Below are positions 1,076 through 16,090 of a DNA stretch of 55,067 nucleotides, in pieces (positions within the stretch are counted from its first letter, which is position 1; each line of letters opens with the position of its first letter). The translations under genes and the position numbers were made by a program. The DNA comes from Polyangiaceae bacterium (GTDB taxonomy: Bacteria > Myxococcota_A > Polyangia > Polyangiales > Polyangiaceae). Where the stretch lies: the NCBI GenBank assembly GCA_013214025.1, contig JABSRN010000109.1, positions 1 through 55,067 of the forward strand, written 5' to 3'. Under the pieces are notes generated by a model, which saw nothing but the letters and a program-made list of their open reading frames with translations, did no database searches and was not told the origin of the DNA.

Positions 1076-2257
<1,182 letters not shown>

Positions 2258-2349
2258 GGCGGCGGACCAGAGATAGGCCGTCTTTGCAGAGAAGCGGCGT
2301 TCGCAATTATATTGAACCTCGATAAGGTGCTCTTCGTTCCTGAAAGAAT

Positions 2350-3010
2350 GACGTCATATTCGTCGTCAATGAGTTTGTCGACGCGGTGAACAGTTCCGAT
2401 TCCGCGGGGAGTCACATTCTGTCGAGCTTTGGGTTCGGAGCGACGGTAGGCCGTGCCAAGCACTTGACTTATTCGGTCACGACGGAGCGGCAACTGGTGG
2501 AGAGCGACACGGTGGAATAGGAAGCCTGCTGTGCAACGAATGACTGTGGCTACGGTTTTGTCCGGTCCTTGGTGTACGGGGAGGGGCAGTAGGCTTCGGC
2601 GAAAAAGAGTAGCGCCAAGCTGGGAGCGACCCAGGGGGTGCTTCGCTTCGGTGCCGAAGGCCAGTTTGATGTGTTGCAAAGCCGCTCGGTGAGGGGCTGG
2701 CTCGCCGCCACTGTCGGCCTGACCCGCAGAGGGCAGCCGTCTTCGGTGGCGGAGGATTACATCGACGAAGATCGCCCCCGGGACGAAGCTGACTGTTTCG
2801 GCACCCGGAGTCAGCCCCGCGGGCAGAAAATACCGGCAGCGGGGGACGCGCTAGTGAGCGTGGGCGGCATGTTGCTTGCAGGGGGGCACGACATTGGGGA
2901 GCGTATTTTATTCGCTTCCCAATGGCACCACCCGCGCTCACTCGATGGAGCAGGCCGCGGCCCAGCGAGCGGCCGAACGATACAACGGCGCCCTGCGCAC
3001 CGAAGCCTGA
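2350..3010 (+). pseudogene. Decayed gene with two in-frame stops and a frameshift
   Basis: One phase reads as sensible protein from 2350: DVIFVVNEFVDAVNSSDSAG, then HLTYSVTTERQLVESDTVE, a TAG at 2518, EACCATNDCGYGFVRSLVYG, a second TAG at 2590, then SAKLGATQGVLRFGAEGQF and RSVRGWLAATVGL up to about 2880. After that the neighbouring phase takes over with GSVFYSLPNGTTRAHS and an Ala-rich end, MEQAAAQRAAERYNGALR, stopping at TGA 3008. I recall similar Cys-containing secreted proteins in myxobacteria but cannot name the family. No start codon is evident. Two stops plus a shift argue for real decay. Confidence 0.55.
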
Positions 3011-3210
3011 CGCGCCAACGTGGATGGCCGGGCAAGTCTGATCCCTTCGGGCATTGGTATCGTCGGTCGCTTCTGACTCCACTGACTGGATTTTCCCGAA
3101 ACAGCCCGCGCCAGGAGGTGAGCGCCGGGCAGTGCTGCTTACCAGGAAGCCGTCGACTCGGCTGGTCGGCCAGAGGCCTGAGGACCGCTTCGATCTGATA
3201 TCATTACCGA

Positions 3211-4239
3211 GTGCAGGCAAAGCGTGGACGGCTCTGGGGCAAGGTGGCTGCGACCGCGTGCGTGCTGGCGATGGCGGGCGCAGGGGCGTTCTGTTGGTTC
3301 TGGACCGATCGTCCAACGTTGCAGGATATCCAAGCCAGCAATTGGTCTGAACCATTACCGTCAGCTGACGGCCAGAGTGAGATCCGCGTCACTTGGTGGG
3401 GCGTGGCCACGCTGTTGTTCGACGACGGCGAGACCCAAATTCTTATCGACGGTTATTTTACCCGGGTGGGCGTGTGGGAGCTCGCGACGGCGCGGCCGGT
3501 GTCCCCCGACGGCAAAGCCATCGACTCAGCCTTAGATCGTCTGGGGGCGACGCGTGTGCGAGCCATCGTGCCGGTGCACTCGCACTTCGATCACATGATG
3601 GATACCGCAGAAGTAGCCAAGCGAACTGGGGCGATAGTCGTCGGCTCCCGGTCCACGGCCACCTTCAACCTAGGGATGGGGCTGCCTTCAAAACAGATGG
3701 TGACGCTCCCGAAGGAGGGCGGCACGCGAAAGTTTGGTCGCTTTGAGATCGAGTTGCGGCGGTCCTTACACGCGCCTTTGTCGCCCAAGGGGGGGCCGCG
3801 TTTTCCGGGTGAGATTGAACTGGCTTTCTCCTATCCCGCGCCGGTCTCCAGTTGGCGCGAAGGTGGGAGCTACACGGTGATTCTGCGGCACCCTGCTGGC
3901 ACGATTGTGGTGCAGGGGAGCGCGGGATTTGTTCCCGGGGCGCTCAAAGACGTAAAGGCGGACGTCGTGTTTCTCGGAATCGGCGGTCTGATCCGCATCG
4001 GCGAGCCCCATTTTCGCAACTATTGGCGCGAGGTGGTGAGGGCGACGGGGGCCCCCCACGTTGTGCCGGTCCACTACGACGATTTGACACGCCCCGCTGA
4101 TGCTCCCGCGATCGGGTTTTTTCCGCGGATGATCGACGACGCGCCGACGGTCATCGGCTGGATGCAGGAACAAACAGACGCGGACGTGAGCTTGATCCCC
4201 TGGCGAGAGCCCATTGTACTGCTGAGCGCCAAGCCCTGA
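3211..4239 (+). CDS. MBL-fold metallo-hydrolase, membrane-anchored or exported
   Basis: 342 residues from a GTG start. An N-terminal hydrophobic segment (about residues 12-31) suggests a signal anchor. The metallo-beta-lactamase metal motif HxHxDH is present as HSHFDH (residues 123-128), after a strand ending LIDGYF that carries the conserved Asp. A late VPVHYDDL supplies the terminal His. The usual middle His is less clear (VVQGSAGFVPG). The UlaG/NAPE-PLD-like branch, which begins with a TWWGVATLLF-type strand, is the best match. Substrate unknown. It stands alone, upstream of a convergent dehydrogenase. Confidence 0.8.
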   Translation: MQAKRGRLWGKVAATACVLAMAGAGAFCWFWTDRPTLQDIQASNWSEPLPSADGQSEIRVTWWGVATLLFDDGETQILIDGYFTRVGVWELATARPVSPDGKAIDSALDRLGATRVRAIVPVHSHFDHMMDTAEVAKRTGAIVVGSRSTATFNLGMGLPSKQMVTLPKEGGTRKFGRFEIELRRSLHAPLSPKGGPRFPGEIELAFSYPAPVSSWREGGSYTVILRHPAGTIVVQGSAGFVPGALKDVKADVVFLGIGGLIRIGEPHFRNYWREVVRATGAPHVVPVHYDDLTRPADAPAIGFFPRMIDDAPTVIGWMQEQTDADVSLIPWREPIVLLSAKP

Positions 4240-7502: not shown

Positions 7503-7714
7503 CGTCGTGAGCCCCAGCCGAATTGGGTCCCCTCGTGGTCTGCGTCCCCCATAGCTCTCGCACGAGCAAGCTTAGCGCCTGTGTGGGTGGGGGGGGCGGA
7601 GTCTTAAGGGGCATGCTTGGAGTGCGGCGAGGCATGGTAAGATCTGATGTTGACGCTGTTTTCTTTGGGAGCGGGCGTCCGACACAGCTCGCTGCAAGGT
7701 GGGCATCGGGGAAG

Positions 7715-10700
7715 ATGCAGAGTACGAGGAGCTGGAGTTCTGGCGGGTCGCCGACCCGGCGCGATCCCGTGCAGCCAGCTGAGAAGGCTCGTCACTCGCG
7801 AGTGTCGCGTTGTGTGTTGGCGATAGTTGCGGGGATCTCGCTGCTGAGCTGCGGTCGAGTTGGCTACGATGGCGAAGGCATCTCCGCCCGCCGCGGCGCC
7901 GACCCGGATGCCCGCGGCGGTGGCGACGCAGAGAACAAGGACGCATCGGCCACCGGCGGCGGCACCTCGGACGCTGGCGGCTTGGGCGGTACTGGCGGCT
8001 CGGGCGGTACTGGCGGCACGGCCGCTGGTGGCGGAAACACCGACGCCGGTGGTTCGGGTGGCCGCGATGCGGGAGGCAGCAGCGGCTCGGCAGATGCCGG
8101 CGAGGCTGGCGGCTCGGGTGGTACCGGAGCCTGTGCCACCGACCTGGACAACGACAGCATTTGCTCGACTAGCGACTGCGACGACAGTGTCGAGACGGGG
8201 TTCACGTGCTCTACCGGGTGCTCAACCTTCTACGACGACAATGACGTAGACGGCTTCGGCGACATAGGTTCGGGTGTGGTCGCCTGTCTCGCACCCTCGG
8301 GTTATCTCACGACCGCGACAGACGAGTGCCCGCTCGATACGAACCGAATGCTCGCTGGGGATTGCGGCTGTCCCGCCGCCCCTGAATTACCGACGATGGC
8401 GTGCAACGACGGCTTGTGTGACGCGAACAGTTTTTGTGATGGCTCGGGCAGTTGTGGGCAAGCGAGCGATTGCGTGGCCTATCCGCAGATAGCTGCCGCC
8501 TATTCGTCGACTTGCGTCATCGTCGACGGTGGCCGGGTGGCGTGTTTTGGTGATGCCATCCAGGGGCAGCTAGGAAGCGGCGACACCCAAGATAGATGGG
8601 CTCCCGTCTACGTCGGCGGGATCGATGACGCCGTTCAGATCTCGTGTGGTGACGAGCATTGTTGCGTTGTGCATCTGGACGCTACTGTGTCCTGTTGGGG
8701 CGACAATTTTCACGGCGGCCTCGGGGACGGAACGAATCTGGATCGCAAGCTACCAGGCAAGGTGCTACGCATCGCTGCTCAGGGGCCCGAGCTCAAGTGC
8801 GCCTACAAGGAGTCCGATACCAGCGGCTACTGGTTCTGTGACAACGAGACGGACTGGCTTACCGCCAAAAATCGCTGTGAGGCTTTCGGCAACGGAGCCT
8901 TTCTGGCTGAACCCGATACGATAGGCGCTACGCACTTCATCGGCGGCATGGTGCCGACGGAGCACTGGTTCGGAGCGCTGTACGATTCACCGGATTGGGA
9001 TTGGTCCTCGACCGGAAACGTATTCTGGAGCGGCAATTCGACCGGATCGACTCCTGCCGGCGAGTTCGAGTCGTGGGCGATCGGTGAGCCCAACATCGGT
9101 GCGGGCGCTTGCGCTAGCATGAACCTGGGCCCCGACTGGAACGCCGCTCCCTGCACAAATCTCCTCGACTACGTGTGCGAGCTGCCTAAGAACCCGCCGC
9201 CTCAGCTCCAGGGGGCGGTGGAAGTTGCCGCAGGCCGCGGGTTTTCCTGCGCATTGCTCGATAACACCGAGATCGTTTGCTGGGGCAAGGGCACTTCGGG
9301 ACAACTCGGCAATGGCACGAGCGATCAGTGGGTGCCGGTCACCGTGGGTGCTGGCGAGATCGGGATTGCTAGCGACTTGGTGGGAGCCGTCAGCATCAGC
9401 GCCGGCAAACTGCATGCCTGCGCGGTTCTGGCTTCAGGTCTGGCCGCTTGCTGGGGAAGTGGCGGCGACGGCCGGCTGGGCAATGGCGGTCTATTGGGCG
9501 GCTCAGATCCTGACTATGTGCATGGTATCGAAAACGCCGGCGTTTGTACCGCTAGTAATACTTCGGGTTGCCTCGCCAATGTGATTCAGATCGAGGCTGG
9601 CGACAACCACAGCTGCGCCATTCACGATCGCACCTTCGCGTCTTGCTGGGGAGCGAACACCAGTGGAAAAAATGGCACCACAGCATCGGTCCCGATTTTT
9701 CACACATTCCCGCGCCCGGTGCTCGACACCTTGGGCACCGGCGTGCTCGCGGATGTAGCGAAAATCGAAGCGGGGGGAGAGAACAGCTGTGCTGCGCTGT
9801 ATTCCGGTCAGGCCTACTGTTGGGGCGCGGGTCAGAGCGGCGAGCTGGGAGACGGCAACGAAGCGGTCTCGTTCTTGCCAGTACTGGTCTCGACACCGGC
9901 CAACGTGGAGCACGTCACGGTCTCCAATCGTAAACACGCCTGCGCGCTGCACGCGGACGGCACGATCAGCTGCTGGGGCGAGGGCAATTCGGGCAGATTC
10001 GGTGACGGCACCCAGGCGGACGCGATCCTACCGGTCAAGCCGGTGGGTTTGCCAGACATGGTTCAAGTGGACGCCGGAAGCGCCCACGGTTGCGGAGTGA
10101 GTGCCGCCGGCGACGTTTATTGTTGGGGCAGTAACGTGCTCAACGCCTTGGGTACGGCAGACGGTTTCGATCGTTACGGAGGCGTTCCGATCGCCCTGAG
10201 CGGTCCCGCCGTGGAGGTGGCGGCAGGCATCAGCAGCAGCTGTGCGCGAATGGTTTCCGGCACCGTCGAGTGCTGGGGTTCCGACCTAGTTGGGCAAGGC
10301 GGGGACGGAACCGTGGACAACCCCCCATCGACTGAGCCCCATCCGGTGACTGGGATCAGTGACGCCGTGCAGCTGACCGGCGGCGGACAACACTACTGCG
10401 TACTCACCGATCCCGCGTCCGCGGGCCAGGACACCGAGGTGTGGTGTTGGGGAGACAACACTTTTGGCCAGCTCGGCAACAACCAGACCGCTACGAACAC
10501 CGGCACGCCCCAGCAGGTTGTTGGATTGGGCAATTCTGGATCATTGGTTGACGCTGTCAGCATTTCTGCAGGCCTGGAGCATAGCTGTGCGGTTCTTAGG
10601 GATCAGCGGGCGGCGTGTTGGGGCGGAGGCAGTTTCGGACAACTGGGCACGGACGTGGGCGCGGAGCCCTATCCGCTATTGGTGGCGGGTGTCGGGGGCA

Positions 10701-11239
10701 CCGGTGATCTGAGCGCCTTGAGTACCGCTGGCGGCGCTCTGGGTTGCGGCAAATCCCACACCTGTGTGCTGTCCGACAACGGAGAGGCCTACTGCTGGGG
10801 GCTGGGTCTCAACGGTCGACTGGGCAACAATAGCAACTCCGACTCGGCGACGCCGGTGTTGGTGGCCGGAGGTAATCTGAACTTCAGCATGCTGTCCGCC
10901 AACAACAGCGCCCACAACTGTGCCCTACGCTCTGGCGGGGCAGGAGCTGGCACCGTCATGTGTTGGGGGCTGAACGCTCAATACCAGTTGGGTGATGGCA
11001 CCAATACGGACCGCTGGGTGCCGGTGCTGGCGAATCTCGGTGAGGCCGCTTTGGGAACCGGCGACCCGGATCTACTGGCGCCCGTCATTCACATTAGCGG
11101 CATGGCCGAGAGCAGCCTGGCAGTGCACGTCAACGGCATGGTTAGCGGCTGGGGCGAAGGGGCGACGGGGCGTCTGGGCACCGGCATGGACGGCATGTCT
11201 CGCATCCCCCGCGCGCTCTCCCGCCGCCCGCTACACTGA
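7715..11239 (+). CDS. Large lipoprotein of RCC1 repeats with an inserted C-type-lectin-like domain
   Basis: From ATG 7715 it is 1174 residues; GTG 7802 gives a more compact lipoprotein signal (SRCVLAIVAGISLLSC, lipobox LLSC), and the frame extends up to 7523. After the Cys come a Gly/Ala/Asp linker and a Cys/Asp-rich region (DNDSICSTSDCDDS). The bulk is about a dozen RCC1-type units, each with a CWG core followed by GQLG or GRLG and a GDGT-like turn, enough for more than one seven-bladed propeller. Between the second and third units (about bases 8800-9190) lies a C-type-lectin-like domain: WLTAKNRCEAFG, HWFGALYDSPDWDW, WAIGEPN, and a Cys pair ending YVCELP. Probably a cell-surface protein; ligand unknown. 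Confidence 0.85.
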   Translation: MQSTRSWSSGGSPTRRDPVQPAEKARHSRVSRCVLAIVAGISLLSCGRVGYDGEGISARRGADPDARGGGDAENKDASATGGGTSDAGGLGGTGGSGGTGGTAAGGGNTDAGGSGGRDAGGSSGSADAGEAGGSGGTGACATDLDNDSICSTSDCDDSVETGFTCSTGCSTFYDDNDVDGFGDIGSGVVACLAPSGYLTTATDECPLDTNRMLAGDCGCPAAPELPTMACNDGLCDANSFCDGSGSCGQASDCVAYPQIAAAYSSTCVIVDGGRVACFGDAIQGQLGSGDTQDRWAPVYVGGIDDAVQISCGDEHCCVVHLDATVSCWGDNFHGGLGDGTNLDRKLPGKVLRIAAQGPELKCAYKESDTSGYWFCDNETDWLTAKNRCEAFGNGAFLAEPDTIGATHFIGGMVPTEHWFGALYDSPDWDWSSTGNVFWSGNSTGSTPAGEFESWAIGEPNIGAGACASMNLGPDWNAAPCTNLLDYVCELPKNPPPQLQGAVEVAAGRGFSCALLDNTEIVCWGKGTSGQLGNGTSDQWVPVTVGAGEIGIASDLVGAVSISAGKLHACAVLASGLAACWGSGGDGRLGNGGLLGGSDPDYVHGIENAGVCTASNTSGCLANVIQIEAGDNHSCAIHDRTFASCWGANTSGKNGTTASVPIFHTFPRPVLDTLGTGVLADVAKIEAGGENSCAALYSGQAYCWGAGQSGELGDGNEAVSFLPVLVSTPANVEHVTVSNRKHACALHADGTISCWGEGNSGRFGDGTQADAILPVKPVGLPDMVQVDAGSAHGCGVSAAGDVYCWGSNVLNALGTADGFDRYGGVPIALSGPAVEVAAGISSSCARMVSGTVECWGSDLVGQGGDGTVDNPPSTEPHPVTGISDAVQLTGGGQHYCVLTDPASAGQDTEVWCWGDNTFGQLGNNQTATNTGTPQQVVGLGNSGSLVDAVSISAGLEHSCAVLRDQRAACWGGGSFGQLGTDVGAEPYPLLVAGVGGTGDLSALSTAGGALGCGKSHTCVLSDNGEAYCWGLGLNGRLGNNSNSDSATPVLVAGGNLNFSMLSANNSAHNCALRSGGAGAGTVMCWGLNAQYQLGDGTNTDRWVPVLANLGEAALGTGDPDLLAPVIHISGMAESSLAVHVNGMVSGWGEGATGRLGTGMDGMSRIPRALSRRPLH

Positions 11240-14605: not shown

Positions 14606-16090
14606 ATGCGCCAGACACACAAAATGTGGATTTATGTAGCCGCTCTATCGAGCGTATTCTTCTTTTTGGCCACGGGGCAGCTCTCGTGCGCCCGTGCGGA
14701 CGTGCTAGCCAAGCACAGCCCGCGGCATCGTGACGTCAAAGCTCACGACCCAAAACCGTGGCAGCACACGACGCCTGCGGTGAACACGCCTGGGGTCAGT
14801 CTGCGGGCACAATTGGACCGCGGGGCGGTGCTGCAGAACAGCGCTGGCGTGGTGAGGGTAGAGGTCAATGTCGCCACGGGTCCTGAGACCGATGGGATCG
14901 TCGCGCGGGCGAGCGACATCGTGGTTGTCATCGACACGTCGGGCTCGATGAAGGGCGAAAAACTACGCTTCGCCAAACAAGCCACCTTCGAGCTCATCAG
15001 TCGCCTAGGGGATCAGGACCGTTTCGGGCTGGTGGAGTACAGCGACCACGGCACGGTCGTGGTTCCGCTGCAGCACGCCAGCGAACCCAACCGTCGTAGT
15101 TGGCGTCGAGAGGTCCAAAGGCTGCGTGCTCGAGCCAGCACGAACATCAGCGAAGGCATCGACGTGGGCGGCTCTTTGCTTGAGCGCGTCAGCCGCGATC
15201 AGCGCCCGGGTCGCCTCATTCTGTTGTCAGATGGTCTGGCAACTGCAGGCGACACCTCGGTTACTGGCCTGTCCCGGCGAGCCCACAATCTGGCTTCCAA
15301 CAACTTTGCGCTCACCACGATGGGCATTGGCTCGGGCTTCGACGAAAATGTCATGACCAGCCTGGCGACTGCGGGCACGGGCGCGTTCTATTACTTGGCG
15401 AAATTGAGCTATCTGCCGGAGTTCTTCGAGGGGGAATTGGCGTCGGCTCGCGGTACCTACGCCCGCTCTGCCGAGCTGCGCTTCGAGCCAGCCCAAGGCG
15501 TACAGCTGCTGGGTGCCATGGGTTTGCCCGTTCACCGAGATGGGCTGACGTCAGTGGTTCGGCTAGGGGGGCTGTATGCAGCCCGCTCTCGAACGGTATG
15601 GCTCACTCTCCGAGTGCCGACTTACAGTTTGGGTGACAAGGCGCTCGGTAGCCTGTCACTGAATTACTTGCGGCATGGTCGGTCGAACTTGGTGGCCGTG
15701 GGCGCGTTGCCGCGAGTGGCTTGCCTGAGCGACGAGCTGCGTTACCAGGAAAAAATTCATCGAAGCATCTGGGAGCGCGCAGTGCTGGACGATGTCTTCA
15801 ATCGCACCGAAGAAGCGTTCGGGGACGCCATCCGCTCGGGCAATCGCCAGGAGTTGAGAGTCGCCATGCGTCGTGCTGAAGATGAGAAAAGGCTAGCTCA
15901 GAGTATTGGGAGCGAGCGTGTGCTGCGCAAGTTGTCGGCCCTCAAGAAAGAGGCAGCGCATGCCGAGGTGGCCCAGCGCGCTCCGGCAGCCGTTCGGAAC
16001 AAGGCAGCGAAGAAGAGTAAGAGCCGTGCGTACCAGCAACGCAATGCATCCAGCTATCACGACTCCGCGGGCGCGATGCGCTCGTACTAG
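14606..16090 (+). CDS. Exported VWA-domain protein
   Basis: 494 residues. The N-terminus has a hydrophobic segment (WIYVAALSSVFFFLATG) ending QLSCARA, a signal peptide and perhaps a weak lipobox. The von Willebrand factor A domain starts near residue 104 with the MIDAS motif DTSGSM (110-115), continues with RFGLVEYSD, a Thr in STNISEGIDVGG, and LILLSDGLATAGD. A beta-rich region follows (SAELRFEPAQGVQLLG), then a helical Arg/Lys/Ala-rich C-terminus (about 380-494). This layout recalls Ca-activated chloride channel-like and VIT/VWA proteins. Ribosome binding site ACGGAGGC precedes the ATG. Divergent from the two-component operon, which may control it. Confidence 0.85.
   Translation: MRQTHKMWIYVAALSSVFFFLATGQLSCARADVLAKHSPRHRDVKAHDPKPWQHTTPAVNTPGVSLRAQLDRGAVLQNSAGVVRVEVNVATGPETDGIVARASDIVVVIDTSGSMKGEKLRFAKQATFELISRLGDQDRFGLVEYSDHGTVVVPLQHASEPNRRSWRREVQRLRARASTNISEGIDVGGSLLERVSRDQRPGRLILLSDGLATAGDTSVTGLSRRAHNLASNNFALTTMGIGSGFDENVMTSLATAGTGAFYYLAKLSYLPEFFEGELASARGTYARSAELRFEPAQGVQLLGAMGLPVHRDGLTSVVRLGGLYAARSRTVWLTLRVPTYSLGDKALGSLSLNYLRHGRSNLVAVGALPRVACLSDELRYQEKIHRSIWERAVLDDVFNRTEEAFGDAIRSGNRQELRVAMRRAEDEKRLAQSIGSERVLRKLSALKKEAAHAEVAQRAPAAVRNKAAKKSKSRAYQQRNASSYHDSAGAMRSY

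Follow-up and report, generated by a model that had tools for sequence, protein, structure and literature searches.

A gene in the window (the whole stretch of 55,067 nucleotides from a Polyangiaceae bacterium that was analysed here) encodes a putative lipoprotein in which a C-type-lectin-like domain (CTLD) interrupts an array of 14 RCC1 repeats, and a full-length paralog in the same genome carries the insert at the identical point. Both the RCC1 propeller and the CTLD are binding folds of wide occurrence; what is new is their combination, the parts themselves being well known, and no new kind of system is involved. The architecture is rare, confined to one genome among those searched. The initial annotation had proposed a lipoprotein with about a dozen RCC1 blades and a CTLD between the second and the third. 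The lipobox, the RCC1 array and the exact position of the insert were all borne out, while the count was revised to 14 repeats. The two outcomes that would have spoken against that proposal, a common architecture or an insert with another fold, were not encountered within what was searched.

Table 1. Features of the RCC1-CTLD gene (positions in the window).
Feature	Positions	Strand	Basis
Possible N-terminal extension	7712..7801	+	In-frame ATG at 7712, GGGGA; paralog N-terminus comparable
RCC1-CTLD lipoprotein gene	7802..11239	+	1145 aa from GTG 7802
Lipobox LLSC (signal peptidase II type)	7841..7852	+	Translation; IAGC at the equivalent place in the paralog
Low-complexity linker, Ser/Gly/Asp/Ala-rich, ~95 residues	7853..8134	+	Translation
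Cys- and Asp-rich segment with DxDxDG-like motifs	8135..8470	+	Translation; without Pfam match
RCC1 repeats 1-2	8471..8776	+	Pfam, repeat profile
CTLD, in the loop between RCC1 repeats 2 and 3	8789..9190	+	Pfam, AlphaFold, structural match
EPN motif of the CTLD (QPN in the paralog)	9086..9094	+	Motif comparison
WNA replacing canonical WND (WDD in the paralog)	9137..9145	+	Motif comparison
RCC1 repeats 3-14	9191..11236	+	Pfam, repeat profile, structural match

The reading frame is intact. Its possible start at GTG 7802 and the upstream in-frame ATG, which has GGGGA just 5' of it, are equally likely; the ATG would place about 46 residues ahead of the lipobox Cys, compared with about 45 in the paralog. 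Both copies have a lipobox ending in Cys, as expected of bacterial lipoproteins. The linker that follows is 53% identical to that of the paralog, and the Cys- and Asp-rich segment, at 68% identity, is among the most conserved parts of the protein. A Pfam search of this segment gave no match even at E 10. The protein had no match in NCBIfam. We take the segment to resemble MopE-type metal-binding or thrombospondin type-3 repeats, and it is possibly a Ca2+-binding stalk. On the 5' side of the gene lie an MFS transporter and an aquaporin-family gene, and on the 3' side, on the opposite strand, a histidine kinase/response regulator pair. A VWA-domain protein is encoded at 14606-16090 of the window, next to a histidine kinase/response regulator pair. 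No obvious operon was seen, and the neighbours give no hint of a pathway.

Assignment of the repeats to the RCC1 superfamily is secure, with scores of 339 bits for PF25390 (cut-off 150, E 4e-101), 211.5 bits for PF00415 (cut-off 21.7) and 204 bits for PF13540 (cut-off 22, 13 stretches). With a repeat profile built from the protein itself, 14 repeats were counted in each of the two paralogs, and a Cys pair can be read from the translation in 13 of the 14 repeats of the present copy. RCC1 relatives from the same family have mostly 7 or 14 repeats; the complete ones have 7 or 14 and are uninterrupted, and the few arrays with other counts are largely clipped by locus ends. None of the relatives sampled shows a gap longer than 45 residues from one repeat to the next, and in this comparison only the RCC1-CTLD protein and its paralog have the 148-residue break that holds the CTLD. 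Because the count is 14 here and 7 or 14 in the relatives, the simplest reading is that the array forms two seven-bladed propellers, with the CTLD probably placed in the loop that joins repeats 2 and 3 of the first. In an AlphaFold model of the whole protein, which is too poor (pLDDT 69, pTM 0.50) for propeller closure or the orientation of the CTLD to be judged, the repeats match UVR8 (Z 22.3) and BLIP-II (Z 18.2), and the insert matches langerin (Z 13.8).

Structure prediction supports the identity of the insert. Modelled alone on an alignment of 66 related CTLDs, the domain folds with a pLDDT of 93.2 and a pTM of 0.87, and the best structural match is codakine (Z 19.1, rmsd 1.4 Å, 116 residues aligned), followed by collectins, the asialoglycoprotein receptor and langerin. 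Fold searches with the insert list CTLDs, a result that does not by itself set other families aside. Pfam Lectin_C scores 25.6 bits on it (cut-off 22.6) and 35.1 bits on the insert of the paralog, and when solved structures are searched with a profile of both domains, codakine and mannose-binding protein come up. Six Cys are conserved in both paralogs, as in long-form CTLDs, and four Cys columns are invariant across the 66 domains. By sequence and model, then, the insert is a long-form CTLD.

Whether this fold binds sugar is another matter. Canonical sugar-binding CTLDs have an EPN (or QPD) motif, an acidic residue just before the next Cys, and WND. The corresponding Ca2+-site-2 set reads EPN-GAC-WNA here and QPN-SSC-WDD in the paralog. 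The acidic residue ahead of the Cys is therefore gone from both copies (GAC and SSC vs EDC), and the full set of ligands is present in neither. Certain CTLDs elsewhere in the genome read EPN-ENC-WND. Since the ligands are incomplete in both paralogs, Ca2+-dependent sugar binding is doubtful and should not be the default assumption, and the earlier view of the lectin-like fold as a sugar-binding surface is not supported as it was stated. Of the five ligand positions, the RCC1-CTLD protein keeps three and the paralog three or four, which makes some binding of metal or sugar possible.

The paralog (contig C54:12374-15802, 1180 residues) has all parts in identical order and is about 60% identical overall, the figure being 59% for the CTLD and 50-70% for the repeats. 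About 3.5 kb from it, a gene resembling those of lipoproteins contains two Lcl_C stretches (L099:15365-16354). Between the paralogs dS is 1.5 upwards in every segment, a level that is high or saturated, against a dN of about 0.25-0.52; the CTLD has a dN of 0.33 and a near-saturated dS of 2.25. Every segment, the CTLD included, is thus under purifying selection. Taken with the shared insertion point, this argues that the insertion preceded the duplication and that both copies have been maintained. A chance event or an assembly artefact was considered and rejected: the paralog is full-length, lies on another contig and has the insert in the identical place, and both copies are under purifying selection, with dN far below dS. 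The architecture is an established one. In a tree of the 66 CTLDs, the nearest relative of the pair is a CTLD on contig C18 of the same genome, with weak support (98/29). Recruitment of the domain from the genome's own stock of CTLDs is plausible.

Both kinds of part are common in the family, RCC1 proteins occurring in 87 of 98 genomes and CTLDs in 77 of 108. Their combination had been suspected to be rare, and the searches agree. Full-score matches to the CTLD profile came from this genome only among 108 family genomes, 183 order genomes and a sample of the phylum. Across 317 genomes of the class, a blade-CTLD-blade profile was matched end to end only by the RCC1-CTLD gene and its paralog; these architecture scans scored the top candidates per genome (in the class scan, the best 8 of up to several hundred), and a divergent fusion could escape them. 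At 125 CTLD loci from other genomes, read with short flanks, no RCC1 repeats were found in the same reading frame as the CTLD. Scans of genome contigs of 84,980 species and of viral contigs with short exact peptide patterns, which reach close relatives only, revealed no relative in either set. Nor did we find a relevant paper linking RCC1 and C-type lectin in one bacterium.

Several other arrangements of these domains were observed. At one of the 125 CTLD loci (L125, genome G154), a seven-repeat RCC1 gene and a CTLD gene (1-1479 and 1495-3312) are convergent and about 15 bases apart; this pair may be an unfused counterpart of the fusion, or a coincidence. Lectin_C was matched 60 times at E 0.01 in the genome studied here; at E 1e-4, a threshold at which no other family genome shows more than 8, the listed matches number 39. 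This genome also carries, on the minus strand of contig C122 of G000 (L102:318-13931), an open reading frame of 4538 residues with 33 Lectin_C stretches; a second frame, 4210 residues long and containing numerous CTLDs, is on contig C142. Frames of more than 10,000 residues in which CTLDs lie between repeated domains occur in a different family of this order (L111, G166:C75), and G167 has one of 7554 residues.

We propose that the protein is an extracytoplasmic lipoprotein scaffold for binding, with two RCC1 propellers and an inserted CTLD of non-canonical or protein-binding character, a reading that we consider evenly poised. The protein would be exported as a lipoprotein, with the linker and the Cys/Asp-rich stalk providing reach. 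The two seven-bladed propellers would offer faces for binding protein, like those of RCC1, UVR8 and BLIP-II, and the CTLD would project from the ring of the first at the repeat 2/3 loop; together they could form one extended recognition surface. On this surface the CTLD would bind protein, or bind without a canonical calcium or sugar site, and candidate partners are other cells, components of prey or matrix, and the cell's own surface proteins. An outer-membrane, surface-exposed location is suggested by the lipobox, and the Cys pairs of the repeats with the six Cys of the CTLD suit an oxidising, extracytoplasmic site. An RCC1-repeat protein of Myxococcus xanthus has been detected in outer-membrane vesicles (PMC4158809). 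Both the role in binding and the kind of ligand are our inference. A more specific version, which we hold only tentatively, is a lineage-restricted surface receptor in which the RCC1 platform displays a CTLD with a decayed calcium site as part of a composite protein-recognition face, the two diverged paralogs differing in specificity.

The domain could instead make the protein a genuine Ca2+-dependent lectin adhesin, its CTLD binding sugars of prey or matrix and its propellers serving mainly as a presentation platform. The closest structural matches are indeed sugar-recognition domains (codakine, collectin-11, mannose-binding protein), this copy keeps EPN and the paralog W-D-D, and some of the genome's other CTLDs retain both EPN and WND. 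But neither copy has the full ligand set, given GAC or SSC for EDC, WNA here and QPN in the paralog, and we regard this explanation as improbable. We rate as just as improbable a scaffold of the BLIP-II type, an inhibitor or receptor whose propeller face binds protein while the CTLD decorates the side and acts structurally or sterically. BLIP-II, described as a secreted binder (PMC9218822), is a bacterial RCC1 propeller, and the repeat region matches it in fold (Z 18.2). A decoration need not be conserved, however, whereas the CTLD is as conserved (59%) as the repeats (50-70%) and under similar constraint, and there is no known enzyme partner.

Known diversity-generating retroelement (DGR) proteins use CTLD folds, and the genome has one reverse transcriptase, so the CTLD might be thought a DGR target and the protein a hypervariable receptor. 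Yet the domain is internal, not at the 3' end of the gene, the sole reverse transcriptase found sits on another contig (C34), and a protein-level search of the genome found no near-identical second CTLD coding region. We consider this explanation very unlikely. On the scaffold reading that we prefer, this genome keeps two copies of a protein in which one binding fold was set into a loop of the other, an example of how these soil bacteria may create surface binders out of common components. The pair also lends itself to experiments that ask which of the faces does the binding.

The array resembles the RCC1/BLIP-II superfamily (RCC1, UVR8, the RLD of HERC2, BLIP-II) in repeat sequence, in seven-repeat periodicity and, by structural match, in fold, but here there are 14 repeats and a 148-residue break with a CTLD. 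MXAN_0889 of M. xanthus, found in outer-membrane vesicles, is likewise a myxobacterial RCC1-repeat protein; it is likened here by description, not by sequence, and is listed only as an RCC1-repeat protein, with no CTLD mentioned (PMC4158809). With the CTLD superfamily (codakine, collectins, langerin), the insert shares the fold, the six long-form Cys and the EPN and W-rich core motifs, but it is embedded in a propeller loop and its Ca2+-site-2 ligands are incomplete. Bacterial surface proteins decorated with CTLDs are known in intimin and invasin (PMC3008723); in those passengers, however, the CTLD decorates a row of Ig-like domains that stands on an outer-membrane barrel, whereas here it lies inside the RCC1 array of a lipoprotein.
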